From NCBI GenBank assembly GCA_017623055.1, contig JAGAPX010000034.1, positions 1-64,000 on the forward strand: a stretch of DNA of 64,000 nucleotides, written 5' to 3'. The notes under the pieces are model-generated. The model saw only the letters and a program-made list of their open reading frames with translations. It was not told where the DNA came from and searched no databases. Made by a program: the position numbers and the translations under genes. This DNA is from Phascolarctobacterium sp. (lineage in GTDB: Bacteria > Bacillota > Negativicutes > Acidaminococcales > Acidaminococcaceae). How positions within the stretch are numbered: the first letter of the stretch is position 1; each line of letters starts with the position of its first letter. Below are positions 53,838 through 64,000 of the stretch, one piece after another.

Positions 53838-53861
53838 AAAAACTGCCTTTAAGCAGTTTTT
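53838..53861. terminator. Terminator at the end of the regulator gene
   Basis: AAAAACTGC (53838-53846) pairs with GCAGTTTTT (53853-53861). On the minus strand it follows the regulator stop. Confidence 0.72.
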
Positions 53862-54225
53862 ATTTTTCTAATATACGTTTTATTCCGTTAAAGGTTTCAG
53901 GGCTGATGATGTGTTCAATGCGGCAAGCGTCCTTTTCTGCAACTTCTTCGGGCACTCCCAAAACTTCGCTAATGAAGCGGGTTAAAATGGTGTGGCGCTC
54001 TAAAATAGCAGTAGCTTTTTTGAGACCTTCTTCTGTGAGCACCAAGCGTCCGTCAGTTTCCATAATAATTAAGTTTTCGCGCTTTAAGATGCTCATGGCA
54101 CGGCTAACGCTAGGTTTAGTAAAGTTCATTTCATTGGCAACATCTATGGAACGCACACTGCCGTTGCGTTGTGTCAAAACAAGGATTGTTTCTAAATAGT
54201 TTTCACCGGATTCGAGCAGGGACAT
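53860..54225 (-). CDS. DtxR/MntR-family metal-dependent regulator
   Basis: A 121-residue protein with an N-terminal winged helix ('SGENYLETILVLTQRNGSVRS' start, about 6-26; 'KPSVSRAM') and the dimerisation/metal domain ('ERHTILTRFISEVLGVPEEVAEKDACRIEH', about 76-105) holding His, Glu and Cys ligands. It lacks the SH3-like third domain, like MntR. It may control Mn2+ or Fe2+ uptake, such as the ABC transporter at 55649. CGGAGG is upstream. It is alone on the minus strand. Confidence 0.88.
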   Translation of the reverse strand: MSLLESGENYLETILVLTQRNGSVRSIDVANEMNFTKPSVSRAMSILKRENLIIMETDGRLVLTEEGLKKATAILERHTILTRFISEVLGVPEEVAEKDACRIEHIISPETFNGIKRILEK

Positions 54226-54298
54226 AATAAAACCTCCGAGAGTTTTTCTATAGCATACATTCTATCATATTATTAAGCGTCTGCAAATAGAGAAAGCG

Positions 54299-54327
54299 TT
54301 TGTGCCTTTTTGAAGTTAGTGTATAAT
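54299..54327 (+). promoter_or_regulatory. Candidate promoter of the FkbM-type gene
   Basis: TTTGTG (54299-54304) and TATAAT (54322-54327), spacer 17 bp, 26 bp before the ATG. Confidence 0.5.
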
Positions 54328-54353
54328 TAATGTAAGAAGTTGGAGGAATTTTT

Positions 54354-55424
54354 ATGCTTAGTTTTATAAATGAAAGTCTTAGTGCGTGGGAACGCCTTTT
54401 GCAAACTGCAAAGCCCATTGTTTTATATGGTATGGGCAACGGAGCTGATAAAATTGTTGATTGGTGCGAAGCTAATTCCGTAAAAATTGCAGGCATCTTT
54501 GCCAGCGATGAGTTCGTCCGTGGGCAAAGCTTCCGTGGTTTTATATTAGAGCGTTACGCAGACATCGTCTCTCGTTTGGGAAAAGATATTTTAATTGTGA
54601 TTGCTTTTGCCAGCGAGCGTCCCGAGGTTTTGGCACGCTTTAAGGAACTGGCAGAAGCCCACGAAACTTTGGCACCTCACCTGCCGCTTTTTGACGAACC
54701 TGAAACTGTAAGCCTTGCTTGGCTAGAAAAGTATGAGGCTGAATTACAAAAGGTTTATGATGGTTTGGCAGACGATGTTTCACGTGAAACATTTGCCAAC
54801 GTGCTTAACTACAAGCTGAGCGGAAAGGTGGAGTATCTTTTTGCCTGCGATACAGCCCGCGAGGAAGATCTGCGCCAGCTCTTTACCTTCGGCGAAAATG
54901 AAGTGTACATGGATTTGGGCGCTTATAATGGCGATACGGTGCAGGAGTTTTTGGATTTAACTGGTGGTAAGTATCAGCACATCATTGCTGTGGAACCGGA
55001 CAGACGTAATTGCAAAAAGCTTAATGCAATGGCGGAAGACCTTGGGGAAATTACCGTGCATGAGTGCGGGGTGTGGAGCGAGGCTGGCGAGCTGGGGTTT
55101 TCTGACAGCGGAGGCAGGCAGTCCACTTTTTTGGCAACTCAAAAGAAAACTGTTCCTGTAAATTCCATAGATGATTTGGCACAGGGAAGAGCAGTTTCCT
55201 ACATTAAAATGGATGTTGAAGGCGCAGAGGTGCAAGCATTAGAAGGGGGCACCAAGGTTATCAAAGAGTATGCTCCTAAAATGTTTGTTGCTGCTTATCA
55301 TTACGATGTTGATATTTTTAGACTGCCCATATTAATTTGGAAGCTTGTTCCAGAATATAAAATCTTCTTTAGAAAGCACCCTTATGTTCCGGCATGGGAA
55401 CTTAATTTTTTAATTACAAAATAG
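54354..55424 (+). CDS. FkbM-family methyltransferase
   Basis: The 356-residue protein has a C-terminal FkbM SAM-dependent methyltransferase domain (about 165-310): 'EVYMDLGAYNGDTVQEFL' binds SAM and 'VEPD' follows. The N-terminal part (about 1-110, 'PIVLYGMGNGADKIVDWCE') looks like a nucleotide-sugar-type Rossmann domain as found in cell-surface polysaccharide enzymes. It may methylate a surface sugar. The codons for 'DVSRET' (54776-54791) form a perfect parS, so the gene is under double constraint. TTGGAGG precedes the ATG. Confidence 0.85.
   Translation: MLSFINESLSAWERLLQTAKPIVLYGMGNGADKIVDWCEANSVKIAGIFASDEFVRGQSFRGFILERYADIVSRLGKDILIVIAFASERPEVLARFKELAEAHETLAPHLPLFDEPETVSLAWLEKYEAELQKVYDGLADDVSRETFANVLNYKLSGKVEYLFACDTAREEDLRQLFTFGENEVYMDLGAYNGDTVQEFLDLTGGKYQHIIAVEPDRRNCKKLNAMAEDLGEITVHECGVWSEAGELGFSDSGGRQSTFLATQKKTVPVNSIDDLAQGRAVSYIKMDVEGAEVQALEGGTKVIKEYAPKMFVAAYHYDVDIFRLPILIWKLVPEYKIFFRKHPYVPAWELNFLITK
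54776..54791. other. Perfect parS centromere site
   Basis: TGTTTCACGTGAAACA is the exact 16-bp consensus for ParB/Spo0J binding. It lies inside the FkbM-type coding region. Such sites cluster near the replication origin and load ParB-CTP and SMC. Chance occurrence of a 16-mer in 64 kb is very low. Confidence 0.9.
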
Positions 55425-55648
55425 CGGGACGCAGATTGTTCCCAGCAGGACAAAACGCACTGTTTGTAAATTTGTGGTGGAGTGTCTACGATAAAAACGT
55501 TAATGTGACAAAAAATTTAATTTTACGTGAAAGATTCTGTAAACTGTAAGCAGGAAAATTAAAGGGTAGGGAGAATCTTTAGAAGTAACAGTATAGAAAT
55601 TCTATGCCTATTTATAAAAAAGTTATTTTGAAAAGGAGTGTTTCTGTA
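55425..55648 (+). other. Gene-free region before the iron-type ABC operon
   Basis: 224 bp with no recognised gene. It should hold the promoter of the following operon, but no confident -35/-10 pair is seen. A weak parS-like match, TTTTACGTGAAAGA, is at about 55521-55534. Confidence 0.4.
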
Positions 55649-56677
55649 ATGAAAAAATCTACTTGGGTTTTAGGTGCGGCTGCATTATTGGCATTATCCG
55701 TAGCAGTAGCTGGCTGCGGTGGCGGCGACAAAAAAGAAGCTGCTAAAGGCGTAAAAGGCGAAGTAATGGTTTATACTTCCATTTATCCTGACATCATCGA
55801 CAATATGTGCAAACCTAACTTGGCAAAAGCTTTCCCCGAAATGAAAGTTAACTGGTTCCAAGGCGGCACCGAAAAAGTTGTAACCAAAATCACCGGCGAA
55901 ATGAAAGCTAACAAAGTTGGCACCGACGTATTGATGGTTGCTGACCCCTCCTACTATCTGAAACTGGATAAAGAAGGCTGGCTCATGCCTTACAAATCCA
56001 AAGAACACAACAACGTTATTGCTGATAAAGCTGAAAACGGTGCTTGGTATGCAGTTCGTGTTTGCAACATGATTATTGCTTACAACGCTGACAAACTGAA
56101 AGCAGAAGATGCTCCGAAATCCTGGCAAGAATTGACCGATCCGAAATGGAAAGGCAAAATCGCTATGCCGAACCCGATGCTCTCCGGTACTGCTTATGTA
56201 GCAGTTGGCGCATTGGCTGACAAATTCGGTTGGGAATACTTCGACAAACTGAAAGCTAACGGTATCCGTGTTGAATCTGGTAACTCCGCAATTCAAAACA
56301 AATTGTTGACTGGCGAATATGCTGCTGCAATGATTCTGGAAGAAAACATCCTGAAACTTGCTGCAACCAAAAAAGAACCGTTGAAAGTTTCCTATCCGGC
56401 AGAAGGCGTTATCAACATTCCTTCCCCGATCGCTATCTTCAAAACTACCAAAAATGCTGAAGGCGCTAAAGCTATGGTTGACTGGTGGCTGTCCAAAGAA
56501 GGTCAACAAGCAGTTGTTAAAGGCTGGATGCACTCTGTTCGTGGCGACGTAAAAGAACCCCTCGGTTCCGTTGAAACCAAAAAATTGGTTGAAGGCAGAG
56601 TTAAAGTTAACTGGCAAAAACTTGCTGACAACAACGCAGCAATCAAAGAAGAATTCCGTAAACGCGTAATGGAATAA
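55649..56677 (+). CDS. Iron(III)-type ABC transporter substrate-binding lipoprotein
   Basis: A 342-residue lipoprotein with lipobox 'AVAGCGG' (Cys at about 23). The mature domain is of the FbpA/AfuA class: 'VMVYTSIYPDIIDN' near the N-terminus, 'TDPKWKGKIAMPNP' (about 160-173) and 'KEGQQAVVKGW' (about 285). These proteins bind Fe3+, but close relatives bind phosphonates or polyamines, so iron is probable rather than proven. ATG 55649 with AAAGGAG is used; a longer start lacks a signal. It is followed by a terminator then permease and ATPase genes. Confidence 0.86.
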   Translation: MKKSTWVLGAAALLALSVAVAGCGGGDKKEAAKGVKGEVMVYTSIYPDIIDNMCKPNLAKAFPEMKVNWFQGGTEKVVTKITGEMKANKVGTDVLMVADPSYYLKLDKEGWLMPYKSKEHNNVIADKAENGAWYAVRVCNMIIAYNADKLKAEDAPKSWQELTDPKWKGKIAMPNPMLSGTAYVAVGALADKFGWEYFDKLKANGIRVESGNSAIQNKLLTGEYAAAMILEENILKLAATKKEPLKVSYPAEGVINIPSPIAIFKTTKNAEGAKAMVDWWLSKEGQQAVVKGWMHSVRGDVKEPLGSVETKKLVEGRVKVNWQKLADNNAAIKEEFRKRVME

Positions 56678-56719
56678 TCTGATAGTCAGGCTACAGGTTT
56701 TAATATTAGGTGTAATAAA

Positions 56720-56757
56720 GAAAAACAGGGACGCTTTTGCGCTCCCTGTTTTTCCCA
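56720..56757 (+). terminator. Terminator or attenuating hairpin after the binding-protein gene
   Basis: AAAAACAGGGA (56721-56731) pairs with TCCCTGTTTTT (56743-56753) with an inner CGC/GCG; it lies in the operon, so it would lower permease expression relative to the binding protein. Confidence 0.8.
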
Positions 56758-56859
56758 CGTTATAAAAGAGGGCTGTTTTTGACGGCATTTTAGTAAATTT
56801 CCCTTAGGTTTGCCCCGTAAACCCCTTAATTTTTAAGGGAAAGGAGAAAATAGTTTTTC

Positions 56860-58530
56860 ATGGCTTCAAGAATTAATAGTAAATTTATTGTAATATCCCT
56901 TTCCGTACTGTTGCTTTTGTATTTTGTAATATTCCCTATGGGCGTATTGCTGTACGATAGTGTCGTTTTAGGCAGCAGCATTAACTTTGACAATTATCGC
57001 GCAGTATATAGCCAGGACGTAAACTGGCGCGCGCTTACAAATACAATCAACTTGTCACTCTTGGTTATGTTTGCCAGCGTAGTGATTACCTTCCCTCTGG
57101 CTTGGTTGGTTGGACGTACGGATATGCCCGGTAAAAAGAACTTCCGTACCTTGCTGGTATCCAGCTATATGATTCCCCCTTATGTAGGCGCAATCGCATG
57201 GGTGCAACTTTTAAACCCCAGCGTTGGCTACATGAACAATTTCTTTAAAGATTTGCTGGGCTTGTCTCAAGCTCCCTTTGATATTTATACTTTCTGGGGT
57301 TTGGCTTGGGTATTAACCCTGTTCTATTCTCCCTTCGCATTCATCACCATTTCCCGCGCAATGGAAAAAATGGATCCTACTTTGGAAGAAGCTGCTCGCG
57401 TATCCGGTGCTTCCCCGCTGCGTACCCTGCTTGACGTAACCTTGCCCTTGATGGCTCCCTCCATTTTGGCAGGCGGTCTCTTGGTATTCATCGCAGCAGG
57501 TTCCTGCTTCGGTATTCCCTCCATCGTAGGTATGCCCGGTAACATTGAAGTTTTGACTACCCGTATCGTAACCTACGTTTACATGGGTAGCGCAGAAGGT
57601 ATCCGCGAAGCCACTGCTCTTGCTGCTTCCCTGATGTTCTTGGCAAACTCCTTGCTCTTCACCATGACCTGGATGATTGGTCGTAAAGATTACACCACCA
57701 TCAGTGGTAAATCTACCCGCCCCAACATCGTAGAGCTTGGCAAATGGAAATGGCCTGCATTCTGTGCAGTAGGCGCTTATGGTATGATTTCCGTAATCAT
57801 TCCCTTGGGCTCCATCGTTGTAACCTCTTTGCTCAAGAGTATGTCCAAGCCTATTACCTTGGATAACTTGGGCTTTGAATCTTGGATTCCTGTTGTTACC
57901 AGTGCTCAATATCTGGAATGCATCTGGAACTCCGTTGTTTACGCAGTTTTGGCTGCAACCATCGGTACTGCGTTGTCCCTCTTCGTTGCGTACTTGGCAG
58001 TTAAGACCACTGTTAAAGGCCGTAGCATTCCGGACCTTCTCACCGTTATCGGCGGCAGTACCCCCAGTATCGTAATCGCTTTGGCTCTGGTAATTACCTT
58101 CTCCGGTAATTATGGCTTGAACCTGTACTCCACAGTTTGGATTCTGGTTGTCAGCTATTTGGTAAAATACATGACCATGTCCGTTCGTACCATCGCTGCT
58201 TCTCTTAGCCAAGTACATAGCTCCTTGGAAGAAGCTGCTCTCAACTCTGGTGCTGACTGGCTCAGATGCTGTAAAGACATCATTATTCCGCTTATTGCCC
58301 CCTCCGTTATCGCAGGCTGGTTCTTGATTTTCATGCCGTCTTTCTACGAATTGACCATGTCCTTGCTCCTTTACGGTGCGGAAACAAAAACTATCGGTGT
58401 ATTGCTTTACGATTTGCAAACCTATGCTGATGCGCAAAACGCTTCCGTGCTTTCCGTAATCATCTTAGGCGTTGTACTCATAGGCAACCTGATTCTCAAC
58501 AAAGTTACCAAAGGCAATGTAGGTATCTAA
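56860..58530 (+). CDS. Iron(III)-type ABC transporter permease, two-domain
   Basis: A 556-residue inner-membrane protein with twelve or so segments: two fused BPD_transp_1 halves, as in FbpB/AfuB. EAA loops are present in both: 'EEAARVSGASPLRTLLDVTLP' (first half, about 187-207) and 'EEAALNSGADWLRCCKDIIIP' (second half, about 460-480). Length is standard. AAAGGAG lies 13 bp ahead of the ATG, slightly far. The ATPase gene follows after 19 bp. Confidence 0.93.
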   Translation: MASRINSKFIVISLSVLLLLYFVIFPMGVLLYDSVVLGSSINFDNYRAVYSQDVNWRALTNTINLSLLVMFASVVITFPLAWLVGRTDMPGKKNFRTLLVSSYMIPPYVGAIAWVQLLNPSVGYMNNFFKDLLGLSQAPFDIYTFWGLAWVLTLFYSPFAFITISRAMEKMDPTLEEAARVSGASPLRTLLDVTLPLMAPSILAGGLLVFIAAGSCFGIPSIVGMPGNIEVLTTRIVTYVYMGSAEGIREATALAASLMFLANSLLFTMTWMIGRKDYTTISGKSTRPNIVELGKWKWPAFCAVGAYGMISVIIPLGSIVVTSLLKSMSKPITLDNLGFESWIPVVTSAQYLECIWNSVVYAVLAATIGTALSLFVAYLAVKTTVKGRSIPDLLTVIGGSTPSIVIALALVITFSGNYGLNLYSTVWILVVSYLVKYMTMSVRTIAASLSQVHSSLEEAALNSGADWLRCCKDIIIPLIAPSVIAGWFLIFMPSFYELTMSLLLYGAETKTIGVLLYDLQTYADAQNASVLSVIILGVVLIGNLILNKVTKGNVGI

Positions 58531-58549
58531 GAAGGAGTGTAATAAATAA

Positions 58550-59596
58550 ATGGCACAAGTACGAATTGAACATGTATATAAACGTTTCGGCGCTGTAACT
58601 GCCGTAGACAATTTTGATGTAGTTGTAGAAGATGGCGAATTTGTCTCCATCCTCGGTCCTTCCGGTTGCGGTAAAACTACTACCCTGCGTATGATTGCAG
58701 GCTTTGAACGTGCAACTGAAGGTGAAATTTATATTGGCGATAAATGCGTAAGCTCTTCCATTAAAGGAACCTTCGCTCCCCCTGAAAAACGTGACATCGG
58801 TATGGTATTCCAATCCTATGCAGTTTGGCCCCATATGACCGTTGCTGAAAACGTTGGCTATCCTTTGAAAATTCAAAAGGTAGCTAAAGAAGAACGTGCT
58901 AAACGCGTTCAAGAAATGCTGGAACTGGTTCACCTCGGTGAATACGGCGAACGTTATCCCCACCAACTTTCCGGTGGTCAACAACAACGTGTAGCTTTGG
59001 CTCGTGCTCTCGTTGCTCAACCCGGCCTCTTGCTTCTCGACGAACCCCTGTCCAACTTGGATGCTAAGCTTCGTGAAAGCATGCGTTTTGAAATTTTGTC
59101 CATTCAAAAGAAATTGGGCATTACCGTTGTATATGTAACCCATGACCAAGGCGAAGCAATGGCAATGAGTGACCGCGTAGTCGTAATGAGCAAAGGCGTT
59201 GTTCAACAAGTTGGCGCTCCTCACGACATCTACACTAACCCTGCTAACAAAATGGTTGCAGACTTCATCGGTCTGGTTAACTTCATTCCCGGCGAAGCTA
59301 AAGGCGACCGCGTATTCATTAAAGACTCCAACGTTTCCTTTGCTAATCCCACCGAAATTACTGGCGAAGCAACTATCGCAGTTCGTCCGGAAAATATCTC
59401 CATCTCCGCTTCTGGTGGTCAATTAGAAGGCACCATGGTAGCACGCTTCTACCTTGGCGACGCTGTTGACTATCGCGTACAATGCGGCGACAATATGGTT
59501 CGCGTAATCGTTAAAGGTGCAGATGTTGATGCTTATCCTGATGGAAGCAAAGTATATCTGGACTTCGACCGCGTTATGGTATTTGGTAGAGACTAA
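58550..59596 (+). CDS. Iron(III)-type ABC transporter ATPase
   Basis: A 348-residue ATPase of the FbpC/PotA type: Walker A 'GPSGCGKTT' (about 36-44), signature 'LSGGQQQRVALARAL' (about 142-156), Walker B 'LLLLDEPLSNLD' and H-loop 'VTHDQGEAM', then a C-terminal TOBE-like domain (about 285-345). AAGGAG precedes the ATG. It completes the transporter with the two genes before it. A terminator follows. Confidence 0.93.
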   Translation: MAQVRIEHVYKRFGAVTAVDNFDVVVEDGEFVSILGPSGCGKTTTLRMIAGFERATEGEIYIGDKCVSSSIKGTFAPPEKRDIGMVFQSYAVWPHMTVAENVGYPLKIQKVAKEERAKRVQEMLELVHLGEYGERYPHQLSGGQQQRVALARALVAQPGLLLLDEPLSNLDAKLRESMRFEILSIQKKLGITVVYVTHDQGEAMAMSDRVVVMSKGVVQQVGAPHDIYTNPANKMVADFIGLVNFIPGEAKGDRVFIKDSNVSFANPTEITGEATIAVRPENISISASGGQLEGTMVARFYLGDAVDYRVQCGDNMVRVIVKGADVDAYPDGSKVYLDFDRVMVFGRD

Positions 59597-59614
59597 TTTA
59601 ATTAATAATTTCAG

Positions 59615-59652
59615 AAAGAACATCGTACAGTTTGTGCGATGTTCTTTTTTTT
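59615..59652 (+). terminator. Rho-independent terminator overlapping a promoter
   Basis: AAAGAACATCG (59615-59625) pairs with CGATGTTCTTT (59637-59647), then a T run. The next gene's -35-like TTGTGC (59632-59637) lies partly in the loop and its -10 TATAAT is at 59655-59660, 17 bp on. Confidence 0.82.
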
Positions 59653-59689
59653 GATATAATATGCGTATATCACTAAAGGCGGATGTATA

Positions 59690-60712
59690 ATGAAGAAAAT
59701 AGTTTGTGCACTGCTACTGCTTTTGATTTTTGTAATAAGCGGTTGCGCCGAAAATACACAACCGAAAAAAGTAGATGCCAATGGCGCACCCAAGTTAAGC
59801 TTGAACGTGTGCAGTAGTATGAGCGAAGCTGTTACTAAGCTTTTGGTGGAAGAGTATGCTCGTAAAAGTGGGGTAGAGGTAAAAGTAAAATACTTGCCTG
59901 CTGGATCCTTTGCTGAAAAAATAGATTTTCTAAGAGCAGATAAATTTGATTGCTGGCTGGGAGGTACTGCGGAAGAATACTATCTTGCAGACCAACAAAG
60001 TATGCTCGCTCCCTACAAGCCCCAAGAGTTTTATAAGATGCCTGCGGAATTGCGTAGCAGACAAGGTCAATGGACCAGCCTTTATTTAGAATACATTGCT
60101 TTTGTCAGCAATACAGAAAAGCTGGAGCAGAAAAAACTTTACGCACCAGATACTTGGGAAGAACTTTTGCTACCAGAGTTTAAGGACGAAATTACCATGC
60201 CGAATTTTGTCAATGGTGGTGCCAGCTACGGAATGATTACTTCTATCTGGCAATTGCGTGGTAAAGAGGCAGCCTTAGAATACGCTGGAAAGCTTAACGG
60301 ACAGAACATCGTTTATACGGATGATATCGCCGAAGCAGTGGACAAGGTTCATAAAGGCGAAAAGATGGTGGCAGTTGTACCCTTACGTACAGCGATTTTG
60401 CAGGAACTAAAGCATAAGCATTTATTTGCTACCGTCGTGAAGGATGCCAATCGTAATTTGCTAAACTGCGTGGCGGTGATGAACGATGCAGAAAATCTTA
60501 ATGAAGCACGTGGCTTCATAGATTATCTTATCAGCGACGAAAGTGAAGCCTTACTCCGCAGTAAAGGCTATCAATATATTTGGCACGCTAAAAACTATCC
60601 TTATAATGACGGACGTAAGGAGCTCATTGGTAACGTTAACGTACCAGTGGACGATTTAAGCTGGACTGCTTTCGAAAAAAATGAAATTATCAGCCAATGG
60701 CTGAAAGCTTGA
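59690..60712 (+). CDS. Second iron-type ABC substrate-binding lipoprotein
   Basis: A 340-residue lipoprotein with lipobox 'VISGCAE' (Cys at about 20). The fold matches the FbpA-type solute-binding family: 'LSLNVCSSMSEAVTKLLVEEY' near the N-terminus, 'KLYAPDTWEELLLPEFKDEITMPN' (about 148-171) and a C-terminal 'YQYIWHAKNYPYNDGRKE'. It follows the ABC operon behind its own terminator and promoter, so it may be an alternative binding protein for the same permease, with a different ligand. It has no close similarity in its signal region to the first one. Confidence 0.85.
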   Translation: MKKIVCALLLLLIFVISGCAENTQPKKVDANGAPKLSLNVCSSMSEAVTKLLVEEYARKSGVEVKVKYLPAGSFAEKIDFLRADKFDCWLGGTAEEYYLADQQSMLAPYKPQEFYKMPAELRSRQGQWTSLYLEYIAFVSNTEKLEQKKLYAPDTWEELLLPEFKDEITMPNFVNGGASYGMITSIWQLRGKEAALEYAGKLNGQNIVYTDDIAEAVDKVHKGEKMVAVVPLRTAILQELKHKHLFATVVKDANRNLLNCVAVMNDAENLNEARGFIDYLISDESEALLRSKGYQYIWHAKNYPYNDGRKELIGNVNVPVDDLSWTAFEKNEIISQWLKA

Positions 60713-60768: not shown

Positions 60769-61200
60769 TTTATAAACAATTTGTTAAAGCGACTTAATGT
60801 TTGTGCTTAAATAATGGACTGCTAAAAATAATAAAATAAGGAATTTTTGTAATAAATTGACTAAAATTGACAGAGTTGTAACGAATGTAACAAAAAGAAC
60901 GAAAATATTAACTGTTAGAAAAAATAATTAAAAATATTTTAAGCCTAAAAATAATGACATTAGGTTTATAAAAAGAAAGTGTTGTAACAAATAGAAAATT
61001 TTTGAATTTGAAAGAAATGTGTTCCATTTACAAAGGGTTAAAAATATAGCTTTAGGCTGTACGAAGTTAACGGAGTCCGTATTTTGTGTACATTGATTAA
61101 TATATTATTACACTATATAATGAGCCTACAGTTAAAGGATTAATGAAAAAATATTGTTTAAATAATAAAAAGTGATGATTTTACAAAGGAGTGGTTCAAG
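60769..61200 (+). other. AT-rich gene-free stretch before the autotransporter gene
   Basis: About 430 bp, strongly AT-rich, with no recognised gene. Several TGTAAC and AAAATA runs occur but no convincing repeat. It contains the promoter listed separately and a leader of about 70 nt. Confidence 0.6.
61093..61121 (+). promoter_or_regulatory. Promoter of the autotransporter gene
   Basis: TTGATT (61093-61098) and TATAAT (61116-61121), spacer 17 bp, 80 bp before the ATG. Confidence 0.65.
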
Positions 61201-64000
61201 ATGACTAAGAAAAAGAAGACCTTGAGAGCAGCCGTATTGGCTTCTATTTTCGCGATGGCGTTTAGTGCTACTGCGTGGGGGGCAACATATGGAACTGTAG
61301 ATATTGATGGCTACGGCTCTAGTGAGATACAAAGCGTATTAAATGATCCTAATTCTGGTATATTTTATGATGGGGGATGGTATGCTCCCGATGGGAAGTT
61401 TTATTATTCAATAAATGGTCAGATAAAGTCGGTAGATGATATAGCCGATATACCATCTGATGATAGAAATGTTTTGTATGGAAAAGGTTTAGATCATAAT
61501 GAGCAAGCTGATTCTGTTGAAGATACCACTAAGGTACCTAGTTATGTGGGATATTTTGATAAGAATGGTTTTAATTCAAAAAGTGTTAGTGATATGCTTG
61601 CTGATAATTTAAAATTTAACAGTGATTTGGTGCGAACTGTATCAGAATGGGAAGAAGTTAATAGAAAAGCGACAGATAAGTATTTAAATGAGCAAATTTC
61701 TCAGATAGATCTTAGTTATGACTTGGAAAGTAATAAATTAACTTTTGTTACTGGTAGAGATAATACAAACGGAAATCCTGTTATTAATACAATAGATTTG
61801 AATGGGTTAGTAGAGAGAGATAATGGCTTATCCATTAACGGGAGTGTTTTAACACTGACTGTGAGTGATAAATCTGGTGAACAGGTTACAGGCAGAGCAG
61901 ACATTTCGAGTTATGTTCAAGGAGTAGTTAATAATAGTGTAAGCATATCGGGAGATACTATTACTGTCAATAACGGTGGTACTACTCAAACATTAACAGA
62001 TAAATACATTACGGGATTTGAACAAATTATTAGTGATAAAGGAATAATTAGTACTACCATAACTAGAAATAATGCAAGTGAAATTACAGATACATTGGAT
62101 ATATCTGATTATGTAAAGACACAAATTTTAAATAATGCTGGTAATGGTTATTATAATAATACAACAACAACGATAAACGAAGCTATAACAAACATTAATA
62201 GTACTATCGGTGATACAAATAATTTCAATAATAATATAAAAAATGAAGGTGGTACTACGACAACAGTAGTAGAAGCTATTAATAATACCTATGATGTTGC
62301 TAAAAAACATAACACTGTAATAGCTGGTGACAATATTATTGTTGATAGTACGGGTACGAATGATGATGGAGGAATAGAATATAAAGTTTCTTTAGGAACT
62401 GAATTGTCTGGTTTAGAGAAAGTAAGTACAAGAGAAGTTATTACTGAAAAGATTACTTTGGGTGAAAGTGAGAATAGTACTGCAATTACTTACGAACAGC
62501 ATAATAATGAGTATAGAATAAAATATGGTGATAACTATGTTGCCAATCTTAATGATGGTATGAAATATGGTGCTGATGCCGGTGAGGATTTAACTTTAAA
62601 CCTTAATGAAAAACTAAATATTAAGGGTGGAAGTAATATCAATACGATTGCAAGTGTTGTTGATGGTATTGCACAAATTGAAGTCAATTTGGACGAGAAT
62701 ATTGTTGTGAACTCTGTCAATACTCAAGTTCTATATTCAAACAATATATATTCTGATGCTGCTACAATAACAACAATCTATACTGACAATGTTTATGCTG
62801 GTGCTATTGATACCAAGATTTTGTATGCAGATAAGATTGATGCTGATGAAGCGGAAATAGATACATTACACTCTAAAAATATTTACTCTGATTCCGTAAG
62901 CACAAAAGTATTGTATTCTGATAATATCTATTCAGATGCTGGAACTATTGATAATTTGTACTCTAACTATGTTGATTCCAATGTAGTATCTACAAATACG
63001 CTCACATTAAAGGGCAACTCTCAAAATACTGATGTCACTTTTAACGATGCGGCAGATGGAAATGATGGTGCTAGAGGTCGTATTGAGTACAAAGATAGCT
63101 CTGGTGTTAGCCAGCAAGTTGCCAACCTTAATGATGGTAAAACTTTTGCTGGTGATTATGGTAGTGCCTTTGTTAAATTGCAAGATGGTGTAAACATCAT
63201 AGGTGGAGCTAATGTTCAAAATCTTTCCGAGGGCAATATCGGTGTTATAGCTGAAGCTAATAATGATGGTAGTGCAACGCTGAATGTTAAGTTGGCAAAA
63301 GACATAGCAGGTCTTGATTCTGTAGAATCTAACATAGTAAATGTTAATAACACACTTACTGTAGGTGATACTAATACTAATATTACCGTTACTAAAGATA
63401 CCATTAACATCAACAACAAAACACAAATTACTGAAAATGGAATTAACATCAATAATAAAGTAATTGTTGAAGAAAACAAAGTAGATGTTGGTGGCAACCG
63501 CATTGAAAATGTAGCTGATGGGGTAAATCCGACTGACGCAGTTAATGTGAGACAATTGGACAAACTCGGCAACCGCGTTGATAAGGTAGGTGCTGGTGCC
63601 GCGGCTCTGGCAGCTCTTCATCCGCTAGACTTTGACCCTGATGATAAGCTTAGCTTTAGCGCAGGTGTAGGTAATTACGGCAGCGAAACTGCTACTGCAC
63701 TTGGTGCGTTCTATCGTCCTTCTGAAAAAGTTATGCTTAGCGCAGCTGGTACCATGGGTAATGGAGAAAATATGGTTAACTTGGGGGTAACCTTCGCTTT
63801 GGATAAAACTAATAATGTTTCCAATAGTCGCGTGGCGATGGCTCGTGAAATTCAAGATTTGAAGTCTCATATTGTTAAGCAAGATGCGCAAATTGCTGAA
63901 TTAATTGCCTTGGTTGGACAGTTGACTGGGAAATCAATTGGTCAGAGTGAAGATAGTATTATGTTCCCGGATGTTCCTGAAAATCATTGGGCATACGATT
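61201..64000 (+). CDS. Trimeric autotransporter adhesin (YadA-like) with C-terminal SLH domain, cut by window end
   Basis: The frame is open for 933 codons and runs off the right edge. A signal peptide ('MTKKKKTLRAAVLASIFAM', cleavage near 'AWGA') is followed by an AT-rich passenger. Two 'ANLNDG' modules (about residues 445 and 640) and a run of about 15-residue repeats of the type 'VLYSDNIYSDA' (about 504-600) make up the stalk. 'NPTDAVNVRQL' (about 775) is the YadA neck, and residues ~800-865 are the trimeric beta-barrel anchor. Unlike classical autotransporters the chain continues: a coiled coil (about 870-910) and the start of an SLH domain ('FPDVPENHWAYD', from 922). SLH domains of diderm Firmicutes bind peptidoglycan, so the tail may tie the outer membrane to the wall. 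Confidence 0.9.
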   Translation, partial: MTKKKKTLRAAVLASIFAMAFSATAWGATYGTVDIDGYGSSEIQSVLNDPNSGIFYDGGWYAPDGKFYYSINGQIKSVDDIADIPSDDRNVLYGKGLDHNEQADSVEDTTKVPSYVGYFDKNGFNSKSVSDMLADNLKFNSDLVRTVSEWEEVNRKATDKYLNEQISQIDLSYDLESNKLTFVTGRDNTNGNPVINTIDLNGLVERDNGLSINGSVLTLTVSDKSGEQVTGRADISSYVQGVVNNSVSISGDTITVNNGGTTQTLTDKYITGFEQIISDKGIISTTITRNNASEITDTLDISDYVKTQILNNAGNGYYNNTTTTINEAITNINSTIGDTNNFNNNIKNEGGTTTTVVEAINNTYDVAKKHNTVIAGDNIIVDSTGTNDDGGIEYKVSLGTELSGLEKVSTREVITEKITLGESENSTAITYEQHNNEYRIKYGDNYVANLNDGMKYGADAGEDLTLNLNEKLNIKGGSNINTIASVVDGIAQIEVNLDENIVVNSVNTQVLYSNNIYSDAATITTIYTDNVYAGAIDTKILYADKIDADEAEIDTLHSKNIYSDSVSTKVLYSDNIYSDAGTIDNLYSNYVDSNVVSTNTLTLKGNSQNTDVTFNDAADGNDGARGRIEYKDSSGVSQQVANLNDGKTFAGDYGSAFVKLQDGVNIIGGANVQNLSEGNIGVIAEANNDGSATLNVKLAKDIAGLDSVESNIVNVNNTLTVGDTNTNITVTKDTININNKTQITENGININNKVIVEENKVDVGGNRIENVADGVNPTDAVNVRQLDKLGNRVDKVGAGAAALAALHPLDFDPDDKLSFSAGVGNYGSETATALGAFYRPSEKVMLSAAGTMGNGENMVNLGVTFALDKTNNVSNSRVAMAREIQDLKSHIVKQDAQIAELIALVGQLTGKSIGQSEDSIMFPDVPENHWAYD

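Follow-up and report, generated by a model that had tools for sequence, protein, structure and literature searches.

The gene at 61201-64299 of a Phascolarctobacterium contig encodes a YadA-type adhesin in which the membrane anchor is followed by a coiled coil, one complete SLH repeat and a tail homologous to the stalk of the porin OmpM. We interpret this protein as a type Vc trimeric autotransporter adhesin whose C-terminal, OmpM-type module would anchor it to the cell wall, a reading to which we assign, from its sequence, a probability of about two in three. The same domain order recurs in two paralogs and in many other Negativicutes, and the residues that line the ligand side of the OmpM SLH are kept throughout the collected adhesin modules.

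Gene structure and domain order

When open reading frames were read over the whole contig (C23 of the genome, 65,145 bases), the gene appeared as a single frame of 1032 amino acids with no internal stops. The stretch of DNA analysed here (the window) comprises the first 64,000 nucleotides of this contig; 61201-63999 is the part of the adhesin frame that lies within it, the frame being open at the window end, and the remainder of the gene is present beyond it. The original prediction had proposed that an SLH follows a YadA neck, anchor and coiled coil, and the order of Pfam matches in this one frame bears it out. A search with the YadA_anchor and SLH models, suggested as a check, returned both, and the matches to YadA_stalk, YadA_anchor and SLH all exceed the curated Pfam cut-offs (Table 1). 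The stretch FPDVPENHWAYD, originally read as an SLH start, begins one complete repeat, with the tail and the stop downstream; one to three repeats had been expected past position 64000. The 68 residues of the tail, AMLYRALEKGFPVDSRLLDEFDAELGRIRIDRIKGLDDDDNKIERVRVNQYEDRDDYGSKLTAVNEAE, comprise in order a helix (RLLDEFDAEL), a predicted beta-hairpin (RIRIDRIKG..NKIERVRVN) and the end YEDRDDYGSKL.

Table 1 Features of the adhesin gene, in contig coordinates (aa, residues of the protein; the window ends at 64000)
Feature	Position	Strand	Basis
Ribosome-binding site AAAGGAG	61185..61191	+	9 bases upstream of ATG, read from sequence
Signal-peptide-like N-terminus MTKKKKTLRAAVLASIFAMAFSATAWGA	61201..61284	+	judged by eye from sequence
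Passenger (adhesin part), about 738 aa	61285..63498	+	Pfam search, paralog comparison
YadA_stalk / neck, aa 767-798	63499..63594	+	PF05662, 38.4 bits, cut-off 28.4
YadA_anchor, trimeric autotransporter barrel segment, aa 812-866	63634..63798	+	PF03895, 48 bits on whole protein, cut-off 22.7
Last barrel strand NLGVTFAL	63778..63801	+	sequence reading
Predicted periplasmic coiled coil	63820..63933	+	heptad check, paralog alignment; helix 83-109 in the L051 model
SLH repeat, single, aa 922-964	63964..64092	+	PF00395, 44.6 bits, positions 2-44 of 44
Post-SLH tail, 68 aa	64093-64296	+	sequence; homologous to OmpM stalk
Stop codon	64297-64299	+	sequence

The protein has features of the type Vc class, namely an above-threshold YadA_anchor match, an anchor fold predicted in a close relative, an N-terminal export signal (by eye) and an N-terminal passenger. 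The genome holds two paralogs with the same domain order, one on C6 (857 aa) and one on C46 (1065 aa), whose C-terminal modules are 76-80% identical to that of the window adhesin and whose passengers differ. The N-terminus of the window adhesin is of the ordinary Sec type, and the extended signal peptide (ESPR) occurs in the C46 paralog only. The passenger of the window adhesin has no Pfam domain in the Pfam search and is not conserved across the three paralogs. The passenger has a G+C content of about 33% and the C-terminal module one of 43% (61285-64000), and the same step is seen in the two paralogs; this mosaic is in line with an exchange of passengers on a constant base.

That an anchor gene was wrongly fused to an SLH gene, by annotation or by assembly, is almost inconceivable. 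Such repetitive genes do lie at the ends of many Negativicute contigs (PMC5491611), which is the one point we found in favour of an artefact, but the frame is open throughout, both paralogs are intact and the order recurs in dozens of independent genomes. The same observations refute a frameshift or an assembly join between anchor and SLH, either of which would have undone the original prediction. An SLH start that broke off would have undone it too, and the repeat proves complete.

Upstream of the adhesin gene, a solute-binding protein, an ABC permease, an ATPase and a second solute-binding lipoprotein are encoded in a row (53860-60712), preceded by a regulator of the iron-dependent-repressor type; this arrangement resembles a locus for metal uptake. 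Beyond the window, 53 bases downstream of the adhesin gene (L009:202-3300), comes a small regulator of the Cro/C1 type (L009:3354-3686).

Predicted fold and topology

The structure predictions are monomers of modest confidence (mean pLDDT 62 and 68). In the AlphaFold model of the whole module of a close relative, L051, from which we use local elements alone given its mean pLDDT of 62 as a monomer, a helix and four strands are followed by a long helix, the SLH helices, a short helix and the tail beta-hairpin, itself predicted with modest confidence. The first helix and the four strands constitute the predicted anchor, which the adhesin shares with the classic autotransporters YadA, Hia and AtaA; the top five Foldseek matches to the model are the anchors of Hia, AtaA and YadA. 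YadA and Hia chains end at the barrel. The coil that links anchor and SLH in the window adhesin fits heptads, with hydrophobic residues at the heptad positions (register 3, with R M I L I Q I L V L at a/d), and in the alignment it is exactly seven residues longer than in both paralogs, an excess of one heptad that keeps the register.

The final strand of a YadA-type anchor finishes at the periplasmic face, so everything downstream of the anchor should be periplasmic. Anatomy and topology thus support the placement of the SLH in the periplasm, behind the barrel, that was originally put forward. The last strand, NLGVTFAL, fits a BAM beta-signal (polar-x-G-x-x-aromatic-x-hydrophobic), though it is internal and not C-terminal. 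Fusobacterium CbpF (9gh4) matches the anchor and coil of the adhesin in sequence; its barrel is poorly resolved by cryo-EM, and the structure gives nothing on the periplasmic side.

In the outer membrane, three chains would together build a single barrel of 12 strands, with the N-terminal passengers exposed outside and the C-termini leaving the last strand into the periplasm, where they would continue as a three-stranded coiled coil to three SLH repeats, one per chain. With one SLH per chain, a trimer would contribute three, the number in OmpM; both OmpM and S-layer proteins build one prism from three SLHs (PMC10628300), and the SLHs of the adhesin may join in the same way as those of three OmpM chains. 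Such a prism would bind the modified cell wall non-covalently, and the adhesin, gripped by both outer membrane and wall, would withstand pulling out and add to the OmpM tethers. AtaA of Acinetobacter has another solution to this problem, reinforcement by the separate periplasmic protein TpgA (PMC13082670), whereas the window adhesin would rely on a domain of its own.

Each of the five YadA proteins in the genome carries a coiled coil after its anchor, and two of them, small adhesins of 535 and 525 aa (L017:657-2264 and L018:620-2197), end in that coil without an SLH. This pattern speaks for a different role of the C-terminal module, as mainly a periplasmic assembly clamp in which coil and SLH hold the chains during BAM insertion and passenger export, with wall binding secondary or absent; Poppleton et al. 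(2017; PMC5491611) likewise suggest that the SLH stabilises the trimer. We regard a pure clamp as improbable, since it would have no need of the invariant ligand-side residues and since the existence of coil-only proteins implies that the SLH must add something. Anchoring to the wall remains the reading that we prefer, and the two coil-only proteins indicate that wall binding is dispensable for some such adhesins. The anchors of these two proteins are identical in amino acid sequence, yet their genes share only 78% of codons there.

Homology to the OmpM stalk

In hhalign, the tail aligned to the segment that follows the SLH in OmpM with a probability of 87.6, a score of 33.8 and a P value of 3.5e-6; the reversed control scored 13.7 and the maximum of 200 column shuffles was 15.8. 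Removal of the first 22 columns left a score of 22.1, still above every shuffle. The alignment pairs EFxPELxRIRVDRIxG...KIERVRV of the adhesin tail with EFxxELxxLGVRVxxLE...VKITGxxRxR of OmpM, and the tail end YEDRDDYGSKL has no clear counterpart in the OmpM stalk. The alignment and its shuffles rule out that the tail is a new, unrelated domain.

Two further comparisons agree with the proposed likeness between the adhesin SLH and that of OmpM. A profile of the module matched the solved OmpM1 structure 8bym with an E value of 4.6e-22 (hmmsearch), over a stretch that starts shortly ahead of the SLH and reaches into the tail, and the first PDB match in a Foldseek search with the predicted SLH-tail was the OmpM1 SLH crystal structure 8bz2 (prob 1.00, E 1.8e-3). 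Because the post-SLH segments are homologous, the module is equivalent to the N-terminal SLH-stalk end of OmpM placed behind a barrel. The term 'reversed design to OmpM' used in the original prediction is apt, in that OmpM runs SLH, coil and barrel and the adhesin runs barrel, coil and SLH.

OmpM (VpOmpM1 in Veillonella parvula), of which this genome has five copies, and the window adhesin have in common one SLH per chain, a coiled coil between SLH and barrel, the ligand-side residues and the homologous post-SLH segment. They differ in that OmpM has an N-terminal SLH and, after it, a porin barrel in every chain, whereas in the adhesin the SLH sits at the C-terminus and a single barrel of the YadA type should be shared by three chains; for these two reasons the window protein is not an OmpM. 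Nor does it have the three SLH repeats per chain of S-layer proteins, as the Pfam search of the whole protein found a single SLH stretch.

In an unrooted tree of the SLH and the next 50 residues, the adhesin modules form one clade separate from Negativicute OmpM (98/88, support that draws on tail columns that are themselves part of the trait), which leaves room for a different ligand. The 46 SLH columns alone leave a single origin of the adhesin SLH unsettled (3 changes). It is conceivable, although we hold it to be somewhat short of an even chance, that the Negativicute adhesin module derives from an OmpM-type N-terminal end, comprising the SLH and the beginning of the stalk, which was attached a single time behind a YadA barrel; that its SLHs form an OmpM prism turned upside down, because the chain comes into each SLH from the opposite side; and that the adhesins are load-bearing membrane-to-wall tethers that pass adhesion force to the wall.

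Candidate cell-wall ligands

The groove of the OmpM1 SLH is made up of W34, G58 and T63-R-Y65-E66 (TRYE), and Y36 and Y65, which are typical of Negativicute OmpM, have been proposed for polyaminated peptidoglycan (Silale et al., 2023; PMC10628300). W34, Y36, R64, Y65 and E66 (VpOmpM1 numbering) are identical in 55/55 distinct adhesin SLHs; the tryptophan was partly selected for in loci from the collection scan, one seed of which held it, loci found through the tail are unaffected, and the tyrosine was unforced by the seed, arginine also being seen at its position. Y36 is present in 30/30 Negativicute OmpM SLHs and in 6/15 SLH porins from outside the class, and Y65, invariant in the adhesins, is mixed in the outside porins. 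The proposed polyamine-related residues are therefore kept, as the predicted likeness to OmpM would have it.

The SLH might instead serve as the same anchor with another ligand, the CsaB-made pyruvylated secondary cell wall polymer that is bound by S-layer proteins of Bacillus. The genome encodes a CsaB pyruvyl transferase (L162:2678-3754; TIGR03609 equivalog, 299.8 bits, cut-off 213.1), and the TRYE arginine, which contacts pyruvate in SpaA (PMC10628300), is invariant in the adhesin SLHs. We nevertheless consider this ligand unlikely, because the two tyrosines typical of Negativicute OmpM are invariant in the adhesins and mixed in outside SLH porins, because a diamine decarboxylase is also encoded, closest to the lysine/ornithine decarboxylase 5gjm (E 3.2e-125), and because OmpM1 binding was demonstrated with polyaminated sacculi (PMC10628300). 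The decarboxylase homolog adjoins a second member of its family (L165:2-2839, on a contig other than that of CsaB), so diamines can probably be made. CsaB and the decarboxylases are relevant to both of the known types of SLH ligand.

Full-length OmpM1 binds sacculi of V. parvula and not those of E. coli, and its isolated SLH stalk does not bind sacculi (PMC10628300), so an SLH fold alone is no proof of binding. From the invariant tyrosines, we favour polyaminated peptidoglycan as the likelier candidate ligand of the adhesin.

Relation to known systems

The concept of an SLH behind a YadA anchor is already published, and the window adhesin is a further case. Poppleton et al. (2017; PMC5491611) described, in V. 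parvula, three adhesins whose YadA anchor is followed by a C-terminal SLH, proposed an OmpM-like, periplasmic contact with peptidoglycan and gave the layout as confined to Negativicutes. Béchon et al. (2020; PMC7549365) found that every trimeric autotransporter of Veillonella has an SLH or a coiled coil behind its anchor, and also proposed attachment to peptidoglycan. VtaG, VtaH and VtaI of Veillonella have the same YadA anchor and then an SLH, with the same proposed location and binding (PMC5491611, PMC7549365); they belong to another genus and carry other passengers. To this we add the single SLH per chain, Y36 and Y65 in 55/55 SLHs, the homology between tail and OmpM and a link between tail and anchor that holds in 84/84 genomes. 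The main-text parts of PMC5491611 and PMC7549365 available to us contain neither the conserved post-SLH tail nor its homology to the OmpM stalk nor the tyrosine statistics nor the strict link of tail and anchor. The effect of the extra domains on adhesin function, surface exposure and outer-membrane stability is stated to be unknown by Béchon et al. (PMC7549365), a question that the conserved tail, its homology to OmpM and the invariant residues on the ligand side open to direct test. If our reading is true, adhesins and OmpM porins of diderm Firmicutes use one wall-binding device, and adhesion force goes straight to the wall.

Inverse autotransporters such as YeeJ, in which peptidoglycan binding rests on LysM, are monomeric and have the wall-binding domain at the N-terminus, a domain order opposite to that of the window adhesin. 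They too include a peptidoglycan-binding adhesin (PMC5595812). The trimeric autotransporters of Streptobacillus also carry a wall-binding domain behind the YadA anchor, in their case a C-terminal OmpA family domain (PF00691) where the window adhesin has its SLH (PMC7549365).

Distribution in Negativicutes

Over SLH and tail, the closest relatives with a name, Phascolarctobacterium MAGs from the gut of roe deer, are 89-95% identical, which marks the genome as Phascolarctobacterium-like (Acidaminococcaceae). The same order is found in independent assemblies, among them those of the named isolates Succiniclasticum ruminis DSM 9236, Acidaminococcus intestini DSM 21505 and Veillonella caviae DSM 20738. 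In other Negativicutes, about 60 distinct loci combine an anchor, a coil of 41-57 residues, one SLH and the tail, and 66 distinct modules were collected when those of this genome are included. Among 380 Negativicutes genomes searched, a tail profile built from three near sequences had matches in 84 and YadA_anchor in 142, and every tail-bearing genome also had a YadA anchor (84/84); the matches listed number at least 192 tails and at least 787 anchors, the latter scored for up to 16 candidates in each genome. Outside the Negativicutes, a scan of 84,980 species with two short seed patterns matched porins with an N-terminal SLH and no adhesins.

A short-tailed version occurs in Dialister, Megasphaera and other Veillonellaceae (L098-L102), in which the chain ends soon after EFxPEL, without the predicted hairpin and the YGS motif. 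In the Phascolarctobacterium genome itself, an orphan remnant of the post-SLH tail, SSKIRQEFEKELGRVRVDRVKGADNDPNKIERVRVNTAIDRDDYGSKVVQVKH, lies on the minus strand of C16 (L161:2122-2301) with neither SLH nor anchor upstream, and is probably the leftover of a lost SLH-tailed adhesin gene. Two SLH porins from a MAG labelled Burkholderiales (L111 and L116) closely resemble porins of UBP9 MAGs (L110 and L113) over the stretches compared; the Burkholderiales-labelled MAG is probably a mislabelled or mixed bin.
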